From a virus: a stretch of 21,943 bases of DNA. The stretch is taken from positions 1 to 21,943 of IMG/VR virus record IMGVR_UViG_3300032053_000597. One strand, written 5' to 3'. Both the position numbers and the translations under genes were made by a program. Positions within the stretch are counted from its first letter, which is position 1, and the number at the start of each line of letters is the position of its first letter. Positions 1,207-21,923 of the stretch are shown here, piece by piece. Below the pieces are notes generated by a model. It searched no databases. It saw nothing but the letters and a program-made list of their open reading frames with translations, and had not been told where the DNA came from.

Positions 1207-1827
1207 TTAGTGGCCGCCGCTATTACCACCATTGCCACCGTTACCACCATGGCCACCTGCCCCACCGTTGCCACCTGCACCGCCAAATCCATTGCCACCG
1301 TTACCCCCTGTGGCATGATTACTATTGGCATTGAAATTGCTAGAGGACTGCCCTTGTAGCTGTCCCTGACCCTGACCCTGCAATTGCCCCTGTCCCTGGG
1401 CCTGGTTTCCACCATTAGACGAGGTATTGTTGGTCGTGCTGGATCTTGAATCACGAATTCCATCTGCCAATAACGCGGAAGCCCCCAGGATCGCTCCTGC
1501 TTGAATCAATGGGGTGGCCAATCCATTCACATAGGGAGAATAGGTCACAAAGTTTGTGCCTGGTTGTTCCGCGGTGAATGTGCAAGGCTGGACATATTCT
1601 GTCTCAGTCCATTTGAATGAGCCATTCTTTTGCTTGGTGTCTTTCCGCTGGCAGACTTCCATCCAAGACCTCTGGGTACCTGGGGAAAACGCATGAGGAT
1701 CAGAGACCGTGCGTTGACCTAATGTGGTACCATTAGTAAAGTCATGCACAGGCAGGAATGAGTTGGTCGAACAACCCACGATGAATAGCATCATGAAACT
1801 GAATAGCACCGACAAACCTTTGAACAT
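1207..1827 (-). CDS. Glycine/glutamine-rich lipoprotein (206 aa)
   Basis: The N-terminus has a basic start, a hydrophobic core and a lipobox (IVGC, Cys19), so the mature protein should be lipidated and sit in an envelope membrane. Residues 20-130 form a polar domain with Trp- and Cys-containing segments (RSWMEVCQRK, EYVQPCTF). Residues 143-161 are a GQGQLQGQ repeat, and 171-206 are almost only Gly, Asn, Ala and His (GGNGGN repeats). Such tails are flexible and sticky, so a surface or spacer role is plausible. A strong Shine-Dalgarno (AAGGAGG) precedes the ATG, and a terminator follows the stop. A frame inside the repeats (1200-1463) is an artefact of biased composition. Confidence 0.88.
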   Translation of the reverse strand: MFKGLSVLFSFMMLFIVGCSTNSFLPVHDFTNGTTLGQRTVSDPHAFSPGTQRSWMEVCQRKDTKQKNGSFKWTETEYVQPCTFTAEQPGTNFVTYSPYVNGLATPLIQAGAILGASALLADGIRDSRSSTTNNTSSNGGNQAQGQGQLQGQGQGQLQGQSSSNFNANSNHATGGNGGNGFGGAGGNGGAGGHGGNGGNGGNSGGH

Positions 1828-7359: not shown

Positions 7360-7830
7360 TTAGAACACCCATCCGGTCTGAATCGTCACCATGTTCATTC
7401 CGATATTCGGACCATCAGCGGTATTCAGACCCAGGGCTTTTCCATTCGACATATGCCACAACTCAACACCCAAGCGAAAATCTTTGTATCCTACGCTCAC
7501 TTGTCCGCCCAGACCAAACTGGGTCCGCTGGGGCAATTCGATCTGTGAATGATCGACATACGAGACACCGAATCTCGGCGTCAAGGTCACACTGTAATCT
7601 GGCTTCGGCTCAAACTTGAAGCCGTATTGTAACTCGGTGCCATAGAAACCGTTGGTGGTCGCTTTGGCGTTCACACCCCAACCCTTGTCACAAGTCTGCA
7701 CTGAGACAATCGCGGCATTTCCCGCGGTATTCTGGTGCTTGGACTGTTTGAAATGAAAATCTGTGCTTGCCATGTATCCTGCCATGAGGACCGGCGCCAG
7801 ACATAATGTACCAACTTCTCTGATGTTCAT
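7360..7830 (-). CDS. Outer-membrane beta-barrel, PagL-like (156 aa)
   Basis: A signal peptide (residues 1-22) is followed by alternating amphipathic strands ending in an aromatic residue (IQTGWVF), as in outer-membrane barrels. Near the C-terminus, ELWHMSNGKALG and then GPNIGMN recall the H-x-SN...NxG signature of PagL lipid A 3-O-deacylases (catalytic His and Ser). The Glu that completes the PagL triad is not obvious here, so enzyme activity is uncertain; a plain 8-stranded barrel is the fallback. If active it would alter lipopolysaccharide, for example the phage receptor. It has its own promoter-like sequence at 7871-7899. Confidence 0.7.
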   Translation of the reverse strand: MNIREVGTLCLAPVLMAGYMASTDFHFKQSKHQNTAGNAAIVSVQTCDKGWGVNAKATTNGFYGTELQYGFKFEPKPDYSVTLTPRFGVSYVDHSQIELPQRTQFGLGGQVSVGYKDFRLGVELWHMSNGKALGLNTADGPNIGMNMVTIQTGWVF

Positions 7831-7958: not shown

Positions 7959-8243
7959 TTATAAGTCATTGATATCATTGAGATGTTCGATATTAGTGGG
8001 GAGTGGATCGCATAGGACAAAGCGGTATCTGGTATATTCCTCGGTTTTTGTTTTGCTAACACAACGTAAACTGGCTAGCTGACAAAAACGCTCTAAATCG
8101 CCCTCAAACGAGAGATCGTCACAACAGGCGATCAATTCATCACCTGGCGATAGTTCGTTGATCCTGAGCCGAATGTGGAGGATTGGGAAGGGACATACCA
8201 TGCCCCGGCAATCGACAATTGGGATACCGTAATCTGACATCAT
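7959..8243 (-). CDS. TusA/SirA-like sulfur carrier protein (94 aa)
   Basis: The N-terminal signature DCRGMVCPFPILHIRLRI is the TusA pattern (D-x-RG-xx-CPxP, then a helix), with the persulfide-carrying Cys about residue 17. GDELIACCDD follows, where family members have 'GE.l.v..ddp'. The C-terminal 25 residues are extra. TusA relays sulfur for the 2-thio group of U34 in certain tRNAs and for other sulfur pathways. In a phage with many tRNAs the tRNA link is attractive but inferred. Its ATG shares a base with the preceding TAA. Confidence 0.78.
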   Translation of the reverse strand: MMSDYGIPIVDCRGMVCPFPILHIRLRINELSPGDELIACCDDLSFEGDLERFCQLASLRCVSKTKTEEYTRYRFVLCDPLPTNIEHLNDINDL

Positions 8244-8592: not shown

Positions 8593-8859
8593 TTATTCTG
8601 CGCTTGCACGACCATCATCGATATGATGATGCTGAAAATCTAACCAGGCATGTCCCAATTCATGCAAGAGGATATACCGTTTTCTGTTGAGAGGAAGACT
8701 TTTCCGAATATAGATGGTGCGACGATCTACCTCCCAGAGACCATCAGAACCATGATCCCTTCGATTGAAGTCACCATTGCTGAGTTGCTTGACCGTGATA
8801 ATATACCCAAACGGCAGGACCACCTTCCTGGGCATTCGGCATTGTCCTAGCTGTGCCAT
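8593..8859 (-). CDS. Small HExxH metallopeptidase-like protein (88 aa)
   Basis: The zinc-protease signature ILLHELGHAWLDFQHHH lies at about residues 63-79 (His-Glu-x-x-His). The context, a strand RTIYIRKSLPLNRKR before the helix, is like ImmA/IrrE-type or SprT-type minimal metallopeptidases. At 88 aa it is shorter than most, so a stand-alone core or a non-catalytic remnant is possible. It starts within the last codons of the glycosyltransferase (13-nt overlap). Confidence 0.75.
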   Translation of the reverse strand: MAQLGQCRMPRKVVLPFGYIITVKQLSNGDFNRRDHGSDGLWEVDRRTIYIRKSLPLNRKRYILLHELGHAWLDFQHHHIDDGRASAE

Positions 8860-15707: not shown

Positions 15708-15916
15708 CAGACGTAGATCATCCGTTTTCGTTCATAATCCTCAAGAATCCACTGGACCTGACGGTCCGACAGAAGAGGACTCACAAAACCAGTGACCGAA
15801 TTGAATAGGAGAATGTCTATCTTCAACAAACCCCCAGTATTTACATAGACTTTCAGGTGTTCTTTAGTCCTGGACCACACCAATACCAAATCCAGATCTG
15901 AAATTTCTTTACTCAT
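15707..15916 (-). CDS. Hypothetical protein (69 aa)
   Basis: A beta-rich N-terminal half (LDLVLVWSRTKEHLKVYVNT) and a C-terminal helix (DRQVQWILEDYERKRMIYV). It overlaps the DNA ligase end by 8 nt and ends on the start of a membrane micro-ORF. No family was recognised. Confidence 0.66.
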   Translation of the reverse strand: MSKEISDLDLVLVWSRTKEHLKVYVNTGGLLKIDILLFNSVTGFVSPLLSDRQVQWILEDYERKRMIYV

Positions 15917-17060
15917 AATCCCTCACAATAATGCCCACAGGGAAAATAGGAATCCCATCGTCACTGAGGGTCTGATAGCGAACAGTCAATTCTTTACCTA
16001 TGTAGGCCTTGCGATTCTTCCACTGTTCCTGGCGGACTTCATCAGCCCCTTTGCATCGGACACTGAAGGTCTTGCTGTTCTTGATCTTGCAGACGAATAT
16101 CGCCTTGCCTTCATCTTTGCCTGTTCCTTCATCACACCCGACAATCTCAAACTCTGCATCCAAAAAGTCTTTGTGCTTCTGGAGTTGATTGTCACGATAT
16201 TGGAAGTTATATGGCTCATTTCCACCTGAGCGAATGATCGAACCTTCGTAGCCCGCGGCCATATACTCGGCATGGATCTTGTCGATATTCTTGGGAGACA
16301 GGATCTTGATCGTCTCAACCAATCGGAGATAGTTCAAGCCATTAGGAATCATCTGGCGATACTGTATGTATCGATCTGCAAATCCCAACTTGTCGGTCGT
16401 CGGACGATCATAGCACCAGAATTTCACATACTTTTTCAGCTTGGCCAATTCCGGCGTCTTCTCGTCCTTAATCAGAGACATCAATTCTTGAAAGGTCAGG
16501 TCCCCGTGGTTATACATTTCCCCATCGAGGATATCCCCGTTTTTCATGAAACTGAGAAACTCCTGTTCCATGTACAGATTGAAATTCTTATACTGCTTGG
16601 ACTTACGCGACCAAAAGATGATCGTGTTGTCTTTTCGTTCGACCAAACAACGGACCCCGTTCAGCTTCGGCTGGATATACGCAGGCCATACAAGATGTTG
16701 AGACCTCTCTTTATACTTCTGCGCCAGCATCGGTAGAAGCTTGAGTTGGATTTTCCCCATCCCTTTGTCAATCGTAGGCATGTGGATAGAGTAATTGCTA
16801 TCATGTTTTTTCTTCCATTTTGATTCGGCCTCCAAACAGGCCTGCTCATACGGCGAGGTCTCATTGGACTTGCCGATGTTCATACCAGCGCGAATCGTTT
16901 CGGGTGAATGCTGAATCTTGCCGCCGAGTTGTCCATGTGAGACCGTAATCACGGCATCCTTGGCATATTCGGAAACCTGAATATCCCACACCTTGGTCAC
17001 CCCTTTGGAGGAGGTGCCGTAAAGCGTAGGGAATTTTTTAGTAGATTTGGGAAGGGTCAT
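15909..17060 (-). CDS. ATP-dependent DNA ligase with N-terminal WGR-like domain (383 aa)
   Basis: Residues about 1-85 resemble a WGR-like domain (YGTSSKGVTKVWDIQV...GQLGGKIQ). The ligase core shows motif I YIQPKLNGVRCL (nucleophile Lys in KLNG), motif III DILDGEMY, IIIa KFWCYDRP, motif IV YEGSIIRS, motif V QLQKHKDF, and an OB-fold end (GKELTVRYQTLSDDGIPIFP). It seals nicks during replication or recombination. The ATG at 17060 has AGGAG 8 nt upstream. An in-frame ATG at 17090, adding ten residues, lies 6 nt after a -10 box and could be a leaderless start; I cannot decide between them. Confidence 0.9.
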   Translation of the reverse strand: MTLPKSTKKFPTLYGTSSKGVTKVWDIQVSEYAKDAVITVSHGQLGGKIQHSPETIRAGMNIGKSNETSPYEQACLEAESKWKKKHDSNYSIHMPTIDKGMGKIQLKLLPMLAQKYKERSQHLVWPAYIQPKLNGVRCLVERKDNTIIFWSRKSKQYKNFNLYMEQEFLSFMKNGDILDGEMYNHGDLTFQELMSLIKDEKTPELAKLKKYVKFWCYDRPTTDKLGFADRYIQYRQMIPNGLNYLRLVETIKILSPKNIDKIHAEYMAAGYEGSIIRSGGNEPYNFQYRDNQLQKHKDFLDAEFEIVGCDEGTGKDEGKAIFVCKIKNSKTFSVRCKGADEVRQEQWKNRKAYIGKELTVRYQTLSDDGIPIFPVGIIVRDYE

Positions 17061-17089
17061 GTTGGAGGCTCCTGTTTGCTTGCTGTTCA

Positions 17090-17152
17090 TATTAAGAGTA
17101 TAACATAGCAGGGGGCAGGAGTCAAGAACTATTTTGAGGGGTAAGTCGTTGA
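17090..17152 (-). repeat. Promoter cassette, copy A
   Basis: A 63-nt unit shared with 19597-19660. Identical blocks on the minus strand are TCAACGACTTAC, CAAAATAGTTCTTGAC and TATACTCTTAATATGA. The spacers differ. The 5' part encodes the end of an upstream ORF (STTYxxK then TAG) in both copies, and the 3' part carries a promoter and ATG. Confidence 0.75.
17097..17125 (-). promoter_or_regulatory. Promoter of the DNA ligase gene (cassette copy A)
   Basis: Minus strand TTGACT (17120-17125), 17-nt spacer, extended TGT then TATACT (17097-17102), then CTTAAT and ATG. The start would fall on the ATG at 17090, or give a 30-nt leader with AGGAG for the ATG at 17060. The surrounding bases match copy B at 19604-19633. 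Confidence 0.78.
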
Positions 17153-17249: not shown

Positions 17250-17696
17250 TCATCCTTTGGGATTGTTTTCATTGGAGGGAATTCCTTTCGATTGAAGAAA
17301 TGCTTCGATCCATGCCAGAGTCAAGGCACCAGGAAGACGGAAAATTCCATAGTCATCAGTCTGCGCTTGAATCATCACCCCCGTCGGTGTATGTTTGGAA
17401 TGCCGACAGAGTTGTACGATCCAACCATCGATACCAATACGGAGATTCAACCAACATTCCTCTGGTGGGCAATGGGACCAGAGCCACATCGCTTGTTCCA
17501 TTGAATCTTGAGGATGCCACTCGGATCGTGACGCCACCCCCGATCTGGACCACAGATCTGGCGGCAACTTCTCCCACGATTCAGTATTGAGATCCCGTTG
17601 ACCTGGGGATAATCGGGGAAGATTCAGCGCCTTGAGTGAGTCAATGTGTGCGGTCCAATCATCAGAGCATTCTTGTCGATCTTTAGACATGAGCAT
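17250..17696 (-). CDS. Tryptophan-rich hypothetical protein (148 aa)
   Basis: A soluble protein with many Trp residues (WEKLPPDLWSRSG, AMWLWSHCPPEECWLN) and a strand-rich middle (RIGIDGWIVQLCRHSKHTPT). The C-terminus ALTLAWIEAFLQSKG is helical. It starts 14 nt inside the end of the PEP-CTERM gene. An alternative start is the ATG 6 nt later. No family was recognised. Confidence 0.7.
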   Translation of the reverse strand: MLMSKDRQECSDDWTAHIDSLKALNLPRLSPGQRDLNTESWEKLPPDLWSRSGVASRSEWHPQDSMEQAMWLWSHCPPEECWLNLRIGIDGWIVQLCRHSKHTPTGVMIQAQTDDYGIFRLPGALTLAWIEAFLQSKGIPSNENNPKG

Positions 17697-18489
17697 ACTT
17701 TCTGAATCCCATGACCATTCCTACCGCCAGGAACAGATAGATCCAGGTTGACGGTTCGGGCACATTTGTCTGCGGCACAACGGGAGGAACAAGAGGAGTC
17801 GTAGGAGTAAACGAAGTAAACAAGATCGGCGCATCATACGAACACGGTTGAGCGATCTGTTGACAGACTCGGAGATTATCAAAGCCCACCGTGAACCCAG
17901 GGGTCGTCGTGACATGCCCAAAATTAAACACCAGGGCGCCTATCGGGGCATTATGTGCAAATTCTGGAGGATTATTCGTATTGATCGGAATGTTCATGGT
18001 ATCCAGGTCATAGTGGAACCATCCAGTTCCAGGCTGGATGCCGATACCCAGTGCAAACACATTCGGTCCAGCATCGGGACCTTCGTTCCCTAAAATATTG
18101 ATCTGCAAAAAGGCGGCATTATCATGGTAGATATCCACGCCCTTGAAGGTAAACTCAGCATCATGCTTGCCAGGAAGACCCAGGGCCGGAATGTAGGTCA
18201 TCATATTCGTGGACAAATTTTGAAATATATCAGTCGTGGCCATGTGATTAAAAATGGCATTCGTTGAATTCCCACCGATACCAGATTCCAAGTTCCAATC
18301 GACCAATGAGGCCACTTGACCCATGCGAAACGGGCCCGCATTCACGGTAGGCGGTTCGATGCCTGGAAAACCATTCAATTGATTTGTGGCTGACACGACC
18401 GGCACCAGTGCATCAAAATTGATTGTCGTGGCCCCCGCGGTCGTCACCATAAGGAACAGGCCCAGTAGACAGAATAGTAGTCGTTTCAT
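17683..18489 (-). CDS. Exported protein with PEP-CTERM sorting signal (268 aa)
   Basis: A typical signal peptide (MKRLLFCLLGLFLMVTTAGA) precedes a beta-rich, Asn/Gly-rich domain with INFDALVP at its start and GFTVGFDNLRV near residue 200, as in many PEP-CTERM proteins. After a Pro/Thr linker the end reads NVPEPSTWIYLFLAVGMVMG and FRKYAHV: the VPEP motif, a membrane helix and basic residues, the recognition tag for exosortase in Gram-negative bacteria that make exopolysaccharide. Host exosortase would cut it and send it to the surface or matrix. AGGAG stands 7 nt before the ATG, downstream of a CATAAATA box. Exosortase itself is not in this window. Confidence 0.9.
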   Translation of the reverse strand: MKRLLFCLLGLFLMVTTAGATTINFDALVPVVSATNQLNGFPGIEPPTVNAGPFRMGQVASLVDWNLESGIGGNSTNAIFNHMATTDIFQNLSTNMMTYIPALGLPGKHDAEFTFKGVDIYHDNAAFLQINILGNEGPDAGPNVFALGIGIQPGTGWFHYDLDTMNIPINTNNPPEFAHNAPIGALVFNFGHVTTTPGFTVGFDNLRVCQQIAQPCSYDAPILFTSFTPTTPLVPPVVPQTNVPEPSTWIYLFLAVGMVMGFRKYAHV

Positions 18490-18510
18490 CTTATTTCTCC
18501 TATGATAAGT

Positions 18511-18518
18511 TATTTATG
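18511..18518 (-). promoter_or_regulatory. T4-late-like box CATAAATA
   Basis: This box fits the NATAAATA late consensus and lies 21 nt before the ATG of the PEP-CTERM gene, leaving a short leader with AGGAG. The spacing is what a T4-style late promoter needs. It could be chance in an A/T-rich gap. Confidence 0.4.
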
Positions 18519-18538: not shown

Positions 18539-18772
18539 TTAGTTCAATTCCATCGTGGAGGTCTTCTCTGGAAACGATACCTCAAAATTTGGATCGTTCT
18601 TCGGATCGACCCAACGACAATCTTTGCCATCTTGGCTACGAATGAACAGGCGCCCATCAGAAGGCGTCACCCCGGCCATCGTGGCTCTGTCAAGGTCCCA
18701 TAGAAACCCGCGGTTATGGCAGACCGTCTTGCCCTTGCGGGTCTTGGGTATCAATTGGACTCGTTTGTTCAT
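18539..18772 (-). CDS. Hypothetical protein (77 aa)
   Basis: A basic N-terminus (MNKRVQLIPKTRKGKTVCHN) and a Trp/Asp-rich remainder (GFLWDLDRATMAG, CRWVDPKNDPNFEV). It starts in an ATGA overlap with the upstream gene. No family was recognised. Confidence 0.68.
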   Translation of the reverse strand: MNKRVQLIPKTRKGKTVCHNRGFLWDLDRATMAGVTPSDGRLFIRSQDGKDCRWVDPKNDPNFEVSFPEKTSTMELN

Positions 18773-20076: not shown

Positions 20077-20150
20077 TGGTCGACCCTACAGGTTACGCTC
20101 CTGTCTCTCAGCAATGTCAATGCCGCATTCTGCTAATGAACTAAGGGTCG
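20077..20150 (-). tRNA. tRNA-Val (anticodon GAC), CCA encoded
   Basis: Complete cloverleaf of 74 nt: acceptor CGACCCT/AGGGTCG (7 bp), D-stem GTTC/GAAT, anticodon stem CGGCA/TGCTG with loop TTGACAT, T-stem ACAGG/CCTGT, then ACCA. The D-loop (ATTAGCA) lacks the usual GG and the T-loop is AGCGTAA instead of TTCRANN, so the D/T tertiary contact is lost or altered. It may be a structurally unusual or decaying phage tRNA. The stop codon of the preceding ORF lies inside its first 10 nt. Confidence 0.7.
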
Positions 20151-20284
20151 ATATTGTGAATGTGTTTCCATACTGCAAGGTCAAATCGAAAACCAAGTTG
20201 CTCAACTATACCTCTATCTAGTTCTAACTGAATCCATAGTGACGCTGGAATACCGTCTTTGTCGCATGGCTCATTGGTCATCAT
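20141..20284 (-). CDS. Small ORF between two tRNAs (47 aa)
   Basis: The frame starts MMTNEPCDKDGIPASLWIQL and ends WKHIHNIDP. Its ATG is 5 nt after the CCA of tRNA-Arg(UCG) in the same ATATTATG context as the phosphatase gene after tRNA-Val, and its stop overlaps the 5' end of tRNA-Val. No Shine-Dalgarno is present. It fills the space exactly. No family was recognised. Confidence 0.55.
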   Translation of the reverse strand: MMTNEPCDKDGIPASLWIQLELDRGIVEQLGFRFDLAVWKHIHNIDP

Positions 20285-20289
20285 AATAT

Positions 20290-20367
20290 TGGTCTCCCTG
20301 ACAGGATTCGAACCTGCATAGGCCCGCGTTCGAAGCGCGGTCGGCGTCCAATTGCCATCACAGGGAG
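20290..20367 (-). tRNA. tRNA-Arg (anticodon UCG), CCA encoded
   Basis: Acceptor CTCCCTG/CAGGGAG, D-arm GGC-AATTGGAC-GCC, anticodon stem CCGCG/CGCGG with loop CTTCGAA, T-arm CAGG-TTCGAAT-CCTG, then ACCA. The body closely resembles the tRNA-Arg(UCU) at 20857, so the two are probably paralogues. It reads CGA codons. Confidence 0.88.
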
Positions 20368-20368
20368 G

Positions 20369-20770
20369 TTAGATCAAAAATTCTTTCCATTGAATATCAA
20401 AAATACAATTATCAGGCGCTCCACGAAACATCGGGGCGATCTGCTTATTGGTGTATCCGGCTAGCCCGCAGCCGATTCGCGTCACAAAAAATACATCATC
20501 CTTCTTGAATCGTGCATACTCCAAAAACTCTTTCACATAATGCTCAATAGACTCAAGTGCCAGGGACTCTACAAATTCGTCCTTTGTTGGAATGGCATAG
20601 GCTTGTCCTGTGGGTCCTCGACCCACACCATTCTTGGCACCATAGATATCACGGGCATACAGGGCCGCGCCGCGTCCATGTCGACCGGCGAGGTTCGACC
20701 CAAACACGAAAATGGCATCGGCAAAATCCCCGCTATGTCGTGCCTGTGTTTCATCAAAAAATTGCATCAT
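20369..20770 (-). CDS. A1S_2505-type phage non-structural protein (133 aa)
   Basis: The pattern AIFVFGSNLAGRHGRGAALY, then GRGPTGQAYAIPTKD and FFVTRIGCGLAGY...IAPMF is the A1S_2505-like family common in phages and some bacteria. The Gly-rich GSNLAGRHGRGA loop resembles a macro-domain-like nucleotide-binding site, so binding of ADP-ribose or a related ligand is possible but unproven. GAGGA lies before the two ATGs. It sits between tRNA-Arg(CCU) and tRNA-Arg(UCG), with one base between its stop and the latter. Confidence 0.87.
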   Translation of the reverse strand: MMQFFDETQARHSGDFADAIFVFGSNLAGRHGRGAALYARDIYGAKNGVGRGPTGQAYAIPTKDEFVESLALESIEHYVKEFLEYARFKKDDVFFVTRIGCGLAGYTNKQIAPMFRGAPDNCIFDIQWKEFLI

Positions 20771-20777
20771 ATCCTCA

Positions 20778-20852
20778 TGGTGCCACGGGTGGGATTCTAA
20801 CCCACGTTGTCCCGCTTAGGAGGCAGGTGCCTTTACGCTAGGCTACCGCGGC
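20778..20852 (-). tRNA. tRNA-Arg (anticodon CCU), CCA encoded
   Basis: Acceptor GCCGCGG/CCGTGGC with one G-U, anticodon stem CCTGC/GCGGG with loop CTCCTAA, T-stem GTGGG/CCCAC with loop TTAGAAT, then ACCA. The T-loop has A in place of the conserved C56 and the D-loop has no GG, a matched departure from the norm. It reads AGG codons. Confidence 0.88.
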
Positions 20853-20856
20853 GTTA

Positions 20857-20931
20857 TGGTGTCCCTGACAGGATTCGAACCTGCATGTGCCCGGTTAGAA
20901 GCCGGGGTGCCTTCCAATTGGCAACAGGGAC
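20857..20931 (-). tRNA. tRNA-Arg (anticodon UCU), CCA encoded
   Basis: Acceptor GTCCCTG/CAGGGAC, D-arm GCC-AATTGGAA-GGC, anticodon stem CCCGG/CCGGG with loop CTTCTAA, T-arm GCAGG-TTCGAAT-CCTGT, then ACCA. Only 4 nt separate it from tRNA-Arg(CCU), so they are processed from one transcript. It reads AGA codons. Confidence 0.92.
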
Positions 20932-20941
20932 GTAAAATTAA

Positions 20942-21021
20942 GTCCAGGTCGGTAGGGTGTGTCGTAGAGTAAACTACTGGTCCCTTCCTGTTGAATATCT
21001 CAGATACATGTGGACCCGGAC
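20942..21021 (-). other. Folded 80-nt spacer between tRNAs
   Basis: Ends GTCCGGG and CCTGGAC can pair over 7 bp (one G-U). Inside are hairpins TATC-TGA-GATA and GTAG-TTTACT-CTAC, the latter enclosed by an AGGG/CCCT pairing. The overall size and closing stem resemble a tRNA, but no anticodon arm, TTC loop or CCA can be placed. It may be a tRNA relic or a small structured RNA. No ORF is supported here. Confidence 0.3.
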
Positions 21022-21024
21022 ACT

Positions 21025-21099
21025 TGGTGCTCCCACTGGGTATCGATCCCAGTTTTTCTGATTGAGAATCAGATGAACTAGCCAGTATTCGATGGGAGC
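21025..21099 (-). tRNA. tRNA-Glu (anticodon CUC), CCA encoded
   Basis: Acceptor GCTCCCA/TGGGAGC, D-stem GAAT/GTTC with GG in the loop, anticodon stem TCTGA/TCAGA with loop TTCTCAA, T-stem CTGGG/CCCAG with loop ATCGATA, then ACCA. 75 nt. It reads GAG. It follows the tmRNA by 6 nt. Confidence 0.88.
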
Positions 21100-21105
21100 G
21101 TATTT

Positions 21106-21435
21106 TGGTGGAGATGCCGGGAATTGAACCCGGGTCCAAAAGAAACGTCAAAGTCGGATATTCCATGCTAGTCATTCAACACTTACAGGAGAAGTGGAAT
21201 GACACCGTTCTCCCTGGGCGACCAGGTAGTTCGCGGCCCCCATGATCTGATCTTCCATCATGAGGCGCTATCCTATAATGACGCTTCCCTACTTATAGGC
21301 GTGGGTAGTTCAGCGAGTCGCCTAAGCGGCTAGTGCGAATTCTTCGACACTTCGGTTTTTCCAAGTATTAACGAGGTCCTGGTCCTCGGCATGTCCGTGC
21401 TTCTCTGTTATCCTCTGTCGATACCTGTCATCCCC
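21106..21435 (-). ncRNA. ssrA: tmRNA (ssrA), one-piece, phage-encoded
   Basis: 330 nt. 5' GGGGATG pairs with 3' CATCTCC before ACCA, including the G3-U wobble that marks alanine charging. The 3' domain has GACCCGGG-TTCAATT-CCCGG. The 5' part has the tmRNA-typical CATGCCGAGG and then a tag frame ending GAA GAA TTC GCA CTA GCC GCT TAG, that is EEFALAA; the resume codon may be the first GAA or further upstream (NRSVEEFALAA). tmRNA rescues stalled ribosomes, and the LAA end marks the product for ClpXP. It starts 8 nt after the stop of the 63-aa gene and is cotranscribed with tRNAs. Confidence 0.93.
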
Positions 21436-21443
21436 TTTCATTG

Positions 21444-21635
21444 TTACCATGAGTCATAATCGGTGATATTGACCATTGTTTTCGTGGTGTTGTTCTGTAC
21501 TTCTACCACCGTACCTATCCCCGTAGACGAAAAGTGAAACGAATAGGTCGCTCGGATGCCCTTGGCCAATCTCTTCTGTTTGCGCTGAAAGTCAGCTAGG
21601 CGTTCAATTTCTAGTGTATTCAATTGAAATGTCAT
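21444..21635 (-). CDS. Hypothetical protein (63 aa)
   Basis: The ATG at 21635 follows GGAG and sits 14 nt after the end of tRNA-Ser(UGA); the longer frame to 21701 would read over that tRNA. The product has a helical start (LNTLEIERLADFQRKQKRLA) and a beta-rich end (ATYSFHFSSTGIGTVVEV). No family was recognised. Its start context GGAG-TATAGTATG nearly matches that of the 27-aa ORF upstream. Confidence 0.65.
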   Translation of the reverse strand: MTFQLNTLEIERLADFQRKQKRLAKGIRATYSFHFSSTGIGTVVEVQNNTTKTMVNITDYDSW

Positions 21636-21649
21636 ACTATACTCCAAAA

Positions 21650-21734
21650 TGGCGGAAGTGTGAGTAGTCGAAACCCAACCTTTCGGTCCCACCCGCTTCA
21701 AACGGGGTCCAGTGCCCTGACTGGTTACACTTCC
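21650..21734 (-). tRNA. tRNA-Ser (anticodon UGA), CCA encoded
   Basis: Acceptor GGAAGTG/CACTTCC, D-stem CCAG/CTGG, anticodon loop TTTGAAG on CCCG/CGGG, long variable arm ACC-GAAA-GGT, T-stem TGGGT/ACTCA with loop TTCGACT, then GCCA. 85 nt, as expected for a class II tRNA. It reads UCA. Confidence 0.88.
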
Positions 21735-21737
21735 ATA

Positions 21738-21821
21738 TTATCCTAGAAGCCAGGTGGCTACGGCACCGATGGTCGCCGTAATCACAAAGGCGAGTCCTAA
21801 TGCTTTCCAATTGATCTGCAT
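21738..21821 (-). CDS. Membrane micro-protein between two tRNA-Ser genes (27 aa)
   Basis: The product is MQINWKALGLAFVITATIGA followed by VATWLLG, one membrane helix. GGAGG stands 6 nt before the ATG. It lies 14 nt after tRNA-Ser(GGA) and 3 nt before tRNA-Ser(UGA). The strong ribosome site supports expression; function unknown. Confidence 0.62.
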   Translation of the reverse strand: MQINWKALGLAFVITATIGAVATWLLG

Positions 21822-21835
21822 ACTATACCTCCAAA

Positions 21836-21923
21836 TGGCGGAAGAGACAGGATTTGAACCTGCGTGGCTTTGACACCGCATCCCTTTCCAAGGGAGCCCG
21901 ATTAGCCTCTCTGGCACTCTTCC
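21836..21923 (-). tRNA. tRNA-Ser (anticodon GGA), CCA encoded
   Basis: Acceptor GGAAGAG/CTCTTCC, anticodon stem CTCCC/GGGAT with loop TTGGAAA, long variable arm (TGCGGTGTCAAAGCCACG region), T-arm CAGG-TTCAAAT-CCTG, then GCCA. 88 nt, class II. It reads UCC and UCU. Confidence 0.92.

Follow-up and report, generated by a model that had tools for sequence, protein, structure and literature searches.

The sorting of proteins by exosortase is known from cellular organisms. The closest known counterpart of the gene described here, the PEP-CTERM/exosortase (EpsH) system, is recognized by the models TIGR02595, PF07589 and PF09721. In the model of this system, a substrate is exported by Sec, loses its leader, is retained by its C-terminal helix, and is then recognized at the PEP motif and released outward (Haft et al. 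2006, PMC1569441; PMC12188702). The floc protein of Aquincola (PMC9850573) and the substrates of cyanoexosortase B (PMC12188702), which carry the same kind of tag, are implicated in aggregation, biofilm or sheath attachment. Both are products of cellular genes, whereas the gene described here belongs to a phage.

The window, which is the whole stretch of 21,943 nucleotides analysed from an IMG/VR virus record, carries one gene of this kind. It resembles the described system in having a signal peptide, a non-homologous mature domain, a PEP motif, a C-terminal helix and some basic end residues, and in the presence of EpsH in the candidate host group. It differs in being phage-encoded, in its borderline score and weak basic cluster, and in an apparent late promoter. 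No description of phage PEP-CTERM proteins was found in the titles, abstracts and selected passages of the literature covered, nor was phage remodelling of a host surface via exosortase found there. Judged from its sequence, the window gene encodes an exosortase-type substrate and belongs to a class that recurs and has apparently not been described before.

It is read here, with moderate confidence, as a phage cargo gene whose exported product is processed by exosortase and alters the surface or matrix of infected Nitrospira. The host Sec system would export the phage protein, signal peptidase would take off the leader, and the C-terminal helix would keep the protein in the inner membrane. Host exosortase (EpsH) would then recognize PEP, cut off the tag and send the mature domain to the outer surface or the exopolysaccharide. 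The most likely purpose would be to alter the infected Nitrospira cell or its aggregate at the surface or in the matrix. For example, the protein might mask receptors, which would keep virions from being caught on debris, or it might bind the matrix or loosen it.

The gene, its tag and its leader

The features of the locus are as follows.

17683..18489, minus strand: PEP-CTERM protein gene (open reading frame; TIGR02595 16.1 bits; orthologue in contig G001 88% identical; dN/dS 0.195)
18433..18489, minus strand: predicted signal peptide, MKRLLFCLLGLFLMVTTAG plus the next Ala (hydropathy; DNA homology with G001 starts here)
17764..18432, minus strand: mature domain, about 222 aa, with many N, T, G and P and few K or R residues (no known homologue beyond G001)
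17686..17763, minus strand: PEP-CTERM tag, VPEPSTW-IYLFLAVGMVMGF-RKYAHV (TIGR02595 and PF07589 alignments to residues 243-264)
18510..18518 (within a base), minus strand: late promoter element CATAAATA, T4-type, about 30 nt 5' of the ATG (YATAAATA motif)
18494..18500 (approximate), minus strand: Shine-Dalgarno-like AGGAG before the start codon (sequence)
17250..17696, minus strand: downstream ORF of 148 aa that shares 14 bases with the end of the PEP-CTERM gene (first residues MLMSKDRQ also in G001)
15909..17090, minus strand: ATP-dependent DNA ligase, marking a conserved slot (PF01068, phrog_114; same order in G001)
18539..18772, minus strand: upstream ORF of 77 aa, phage family phrog_1653 (similar DNA in G001)

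The PEP-CTERM gene starts with ATG and encodes 268 aa. The protein begins with MKRLLFCLLGLFLMVTTAGA, followed by TTINFD, and ends in VPEPSTWIYLFLAVGMVMGFRKYAHV. Its leader consists of MKR, a hydrophobic run at residues 4-20 (mean 2.26) and a cleavage-like site between AGA and TT. The second clear hydropathy maximum lies at residues 246-262 (1.51), straight after VPEP, and RKYAHV comes next. Between signal peptide and tag, hydropathy reveals no clear membrane segment, the weak peak at residues 222-238 (1.19) being Pro/Thr-rich. The signal peptide, the VPEPSTW motif and the single hydrophobic helix noticed earlier are therefore borne out by the ORF and its hydropathy, with RKYAHV as the end of the protein. 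Asn, Thr, Gly and Pro are abundant in the mature domain, and Lys and Arg account for 0.9% each. The beta-rich domain that had also been proposed is weakly supported: an AlphaFold model from two sequences contains some strands, but its mean pLDDT of 31 makes it not usable as a model of the mature domain.

One relative of the whole protein was found by an IMG/VR scan, on the 89-kb contig G001, with 88% amino acid identity; no other was found in IMG/VR, and none in GenBank phages or genome contigs. PDB sequences included no homologue, the tail alone matching channel helices weakly, and outside the tag the mature domain has no match among the PEP-CTERM families of NCBIfam. It also has no homologue in 175 Nitrospira-family genomes, where the one weak match (L131) falls in a region without a clear PEP-CTERM ORF.

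Against TIGR02595 the window tag scores 16.1 bits, the curated cutoff being 16 (E=3.5e-5 with the contig alone as search space; match at 17698-17763). PF07589 gives 18.4 bits, under its cutoff of 20.7, and taken alone the window tag is a borderline case. The tag of the G001 orthologue reaches 20.9 and 21.1 bits, respectively, above both cutoffs in single-genome and Pfam searches; against the whole NCBIfam library the G001 protein matched one PEP-CTERM family weakly (E 0.01), and TIGR02595 was not listed. The profile check suggested in the earlier note was thus passed narrowly by the window protein and clearly by its orthologue. The two tags share 25 of 26 residues, with a single K/R change in the tail, and the preceding linker is variable. 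The basic residues after the helix are R, K and H in the window and R, R and H in G001, and the basic end of the window tag is weak.

Candidate host and its exosortase

The host of the window phage is probably Nitrospira, since G001 carries a beta subunit of 2-oxoacid:ferredoxin oxidoreductase (POR beta) that is 84% identical to that of Nitrospira, and exosortase is widespread in this group. The G001 protein has 303 aa, and almost all of the matches listed for it, at 80-87% identity, carry Nitrospira, Nitrospirales or Nitrospirae in their titles. POR beta is also present in a 176-kb relative. The gene is absent from the window contig, whose host is therefore inferred through the relative. Lake Baikal Nitrospirota viruses with genes of the reductive TCA cycle (PMC7678222) are likewise T4-related and carry such ferredoxin oxidoreductase genes, resembling G001 in genome arrangement and in the Nitrospira-like character of these genes; the term PEP-CTERM is absent from that paper. 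Phage-borne POR beta, a component of the reductive TCA cycle, was located at L002:6815-7726 and also at G015:34144-35034, with 84% identity to Nitrospira.

Exosortase (PF09721) was detected in 25 of 36 Nitrospira or Nitrospirales genomes and in 1 of 14 control genomes. The 11 genomes in which it was not detected are mostly MAGs and possibly incomplete. PEP-CTERM matches occur in 29 of the same 36 genomes, 26 of them above the cutoff. The expectation that the predicted host should possess exosortase is thus in agreement with what this group encodes. None of the 11 phage records examined carries an exosortase of its own.

The pattern VPEP[STA]TW is present in 3 of 172 Nitrospira-family genomes, one occurrence being a plausible tag. 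Because the PEPSTW form is seldom seen in Nitrospira tags, the tag does not narrow the host range as had been assumed; it is other genes that point to the host. The use of the tag as a host identifier was dropped for the same reason. Stretches shared by the window and Nitrospira genomes are short or 66-74% identical, often at a M78-like gene. This gene, at 8593-8859 of the window (minus strand), encodes a short metallopeptidase of the M78/IrrE-like kind, and its DNA is about 70% identical to that of many Nitrospira genomes.

Similar tags on other viral contigs

A scan of IMG/VR with a degenerate DNA pattern for VPEP[STA]TW returned at least 83 matches, which lie in the 80 loci listed. In 54 of the 83 matches listed, the ORF is a longer one whose stop codon comes 15-40 residues after the motif, with a hydrophobic helix behind the motif; a hydrophobic stretch at the N-terminus is seen as well in 44 of these 54 tag-like proteins. 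With a permuted control pattern of equal composition, none of 64 matches was a tag-like protein. Not all of the 54 are proven viral, since host flanks are possible in IMG/VR. Six PEP-CTERM-like proteins on unrelated phage contigs of this database are given below with their surroundings.

L195:4441-5118, 163-kb contig: gene of the Npun_F0296 exosortase-dependent family amid 27 tRNAs and a tmRNA
L203:7616-8353: near DNA polymerase, primase and annealing protein; the tag itself is below TIGR02595
L210:3198-3926: near primase
L151:10121-10786: near terminase
L199:579-1223: near a virion protein
L160:1697-2377: near helicase

Many of these viral PEP-CTERM proteins form one loose similarity group, and the window protein stands outside it. 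The search of viral databases for the same protein end had a divided outcome: many uncultured viral contigs matched, and four protein queries found no PEP-CTERM protein in 50,697 GenBank phages. The tag is not confined to the window phage, because similar tags recur on many uncultured viral contigs, and to that extent the earlier view of such a phage as unusual is unsupported. Together with the GenBank result, this recurrence suggests a class of cargo genes that is not represented among cultured phages. Since genes of this kind are also present in other, unrelated uncultured phages, the sorting machine of the host may be used by some phages. A wider generalization, that unrelated phages, lytic ones included, repeatedly gain PEP-CTERM proteins which host exosortase places on the surface or in the matrix, is tentative and perhaps somewhat short of an even chance.

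The strongest competing explanation is that the C-terminal helix simply anchors an unprocessed periplasmic domain, acting for example in superinfection exclusion or lysis control, and that the likeness to PEP is incidental. The borderline profile score and weak basic end of the window tag would fit such a protein, as would the rarity of the PEPSTW form in the predicted host family. It is nevertheless rather unlikely, given that the G001 orthologue exceeds both cutoffs, that the tag is conserved at all but one position, and that the combination of motif and C-terminal helix is no chance product when the listed matches are set against the permuted control.

Phage context and maintenance of the gene

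Genes for an ATP-dependent DNA ligase, T4-type RNase H, RtcB, PhoH and a phage exonuclease are present in the window, and one of its proteins is common to large phages of Rhizobium, Sinorhizobium and Caulobacter, among others. G001 contributes T4-type genes for baseplate wedge, hub-lysozyme, tube cap, SSB and primase; structural genes are found on G001 and none on the window contig itself. From the replication genes of the window, the baseplate and hub genes of G001 and the YATAAATA motifs, the window phage is classified as T4-like. Seven tRNA genes and a tmRNA occupy 20077-21923 of the window (minus strand), the tmRNA tag being EKHGHAEDQDLVNTWKNRSVEEFALAA. A tmRNA was also called in G001, and its tag differs from that of the window.

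The PEP-CTERM genes of the window and G001 share the slot beside DNA ligase. Between the two, dN/dS is 0.195, compared with 0.07-0.18 for seven neighbouring genes. DNA homology begins at the codon of the Ala before TTINFD, which is the predicted signal-peptide cleavage site. The sequences 5' of this codon are unrelated, yet each encodes a leader, so that the leaders differ between the two phages. Among 20 records examined, this type of gene occurs in two and is absent from 18 relatives, mostly fragments; of ten ligase-bearing loci, none apart from that of G001 had a gene of this architecture at the corresponding position.

On the coding strand of G001 (minus, L004-L008), YATAAATA was observed 13 times against 2.1 expected, in some cases before tail genes. 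This motif is taken here to be the T4 late-promoter form and is read as a sign of late transcription. In the window phage, a T4-type late promoter thus probably drives the PEP-CTERM gene late in infection. The G001 copy is without the element, and the support for late expression is limited to the window. Considered together, dN/dS, the ligase slot, the late-promoter element and the Shine-Dalgarno sequence indicate that the gene is maintained by the phage.

These data also bear on the idea that the phage acquired a host PEP-CTERM gene by chance and carries it as a passenger of no use to itself. Two observations fit this idea: Nitrospira genomes often have PEP-CTERM genes, and the other related phage records have no such gene. 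It is improbable all the same in view of purifying selection between two diverged phages, a fixed slot with a phage-type late promoter, and a mature domain with no counterpart in 175 Nitrospira-family genomes. A bacterial origin of the stretch, or a chimeric contig, as might be supposed because PEP-CTERM otherwise marks cellular genomes, is hardly credible and already contradicted by phage genes flanking the gene on both sides and by the same order in the independent, baseplate-bearing contig G001. The viral nature assumed in the earlier note is confirmed by these flanks, the T4-like replication genes and the origin of the window in a virus record. Of the objections that note had anticipated, none came true: the contig is viral, TIGR02595 was passed and the predicted host group has exosortase.

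If exosortase processing of the phage protein is correct, phages would gain easy access to the outer surface or matrix of bacteria that form biofilms and flocs, nitrifiers of wastewater and soil among them. Infection might then depend on exosortase as a host factor. The window also encodes other proteins with possible effects on the envelope, namely a PagL-like deacylase, a cell-wall hydrolase, a glycosyltransferase and a putative glycine-rich lipoprotein, which makes an envelope-remodelling gene set plausible.

Several of the remaining window genes have features of their own. The PagL-like lipid A 3-O-deacylase at 7360-7830 (minus strand) contains an HMSN motif and is 97% identical in G001, where the copy passes PF09411. 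The PagL-like protein has no PHROG match, and a search of Nitrospira genomes for a homologue, run without a positive control, gave no match. A TusA-like sulfurtransferase at 7959-8243 (minus strand) lacks a PHROG match at E 0.001 and has a CPFP motif. The putative lipoprotein, at 1207-1827 (minus strand), combines a VGC lipobox with a low-complexity tail rich in Gln, Gly and Asn.
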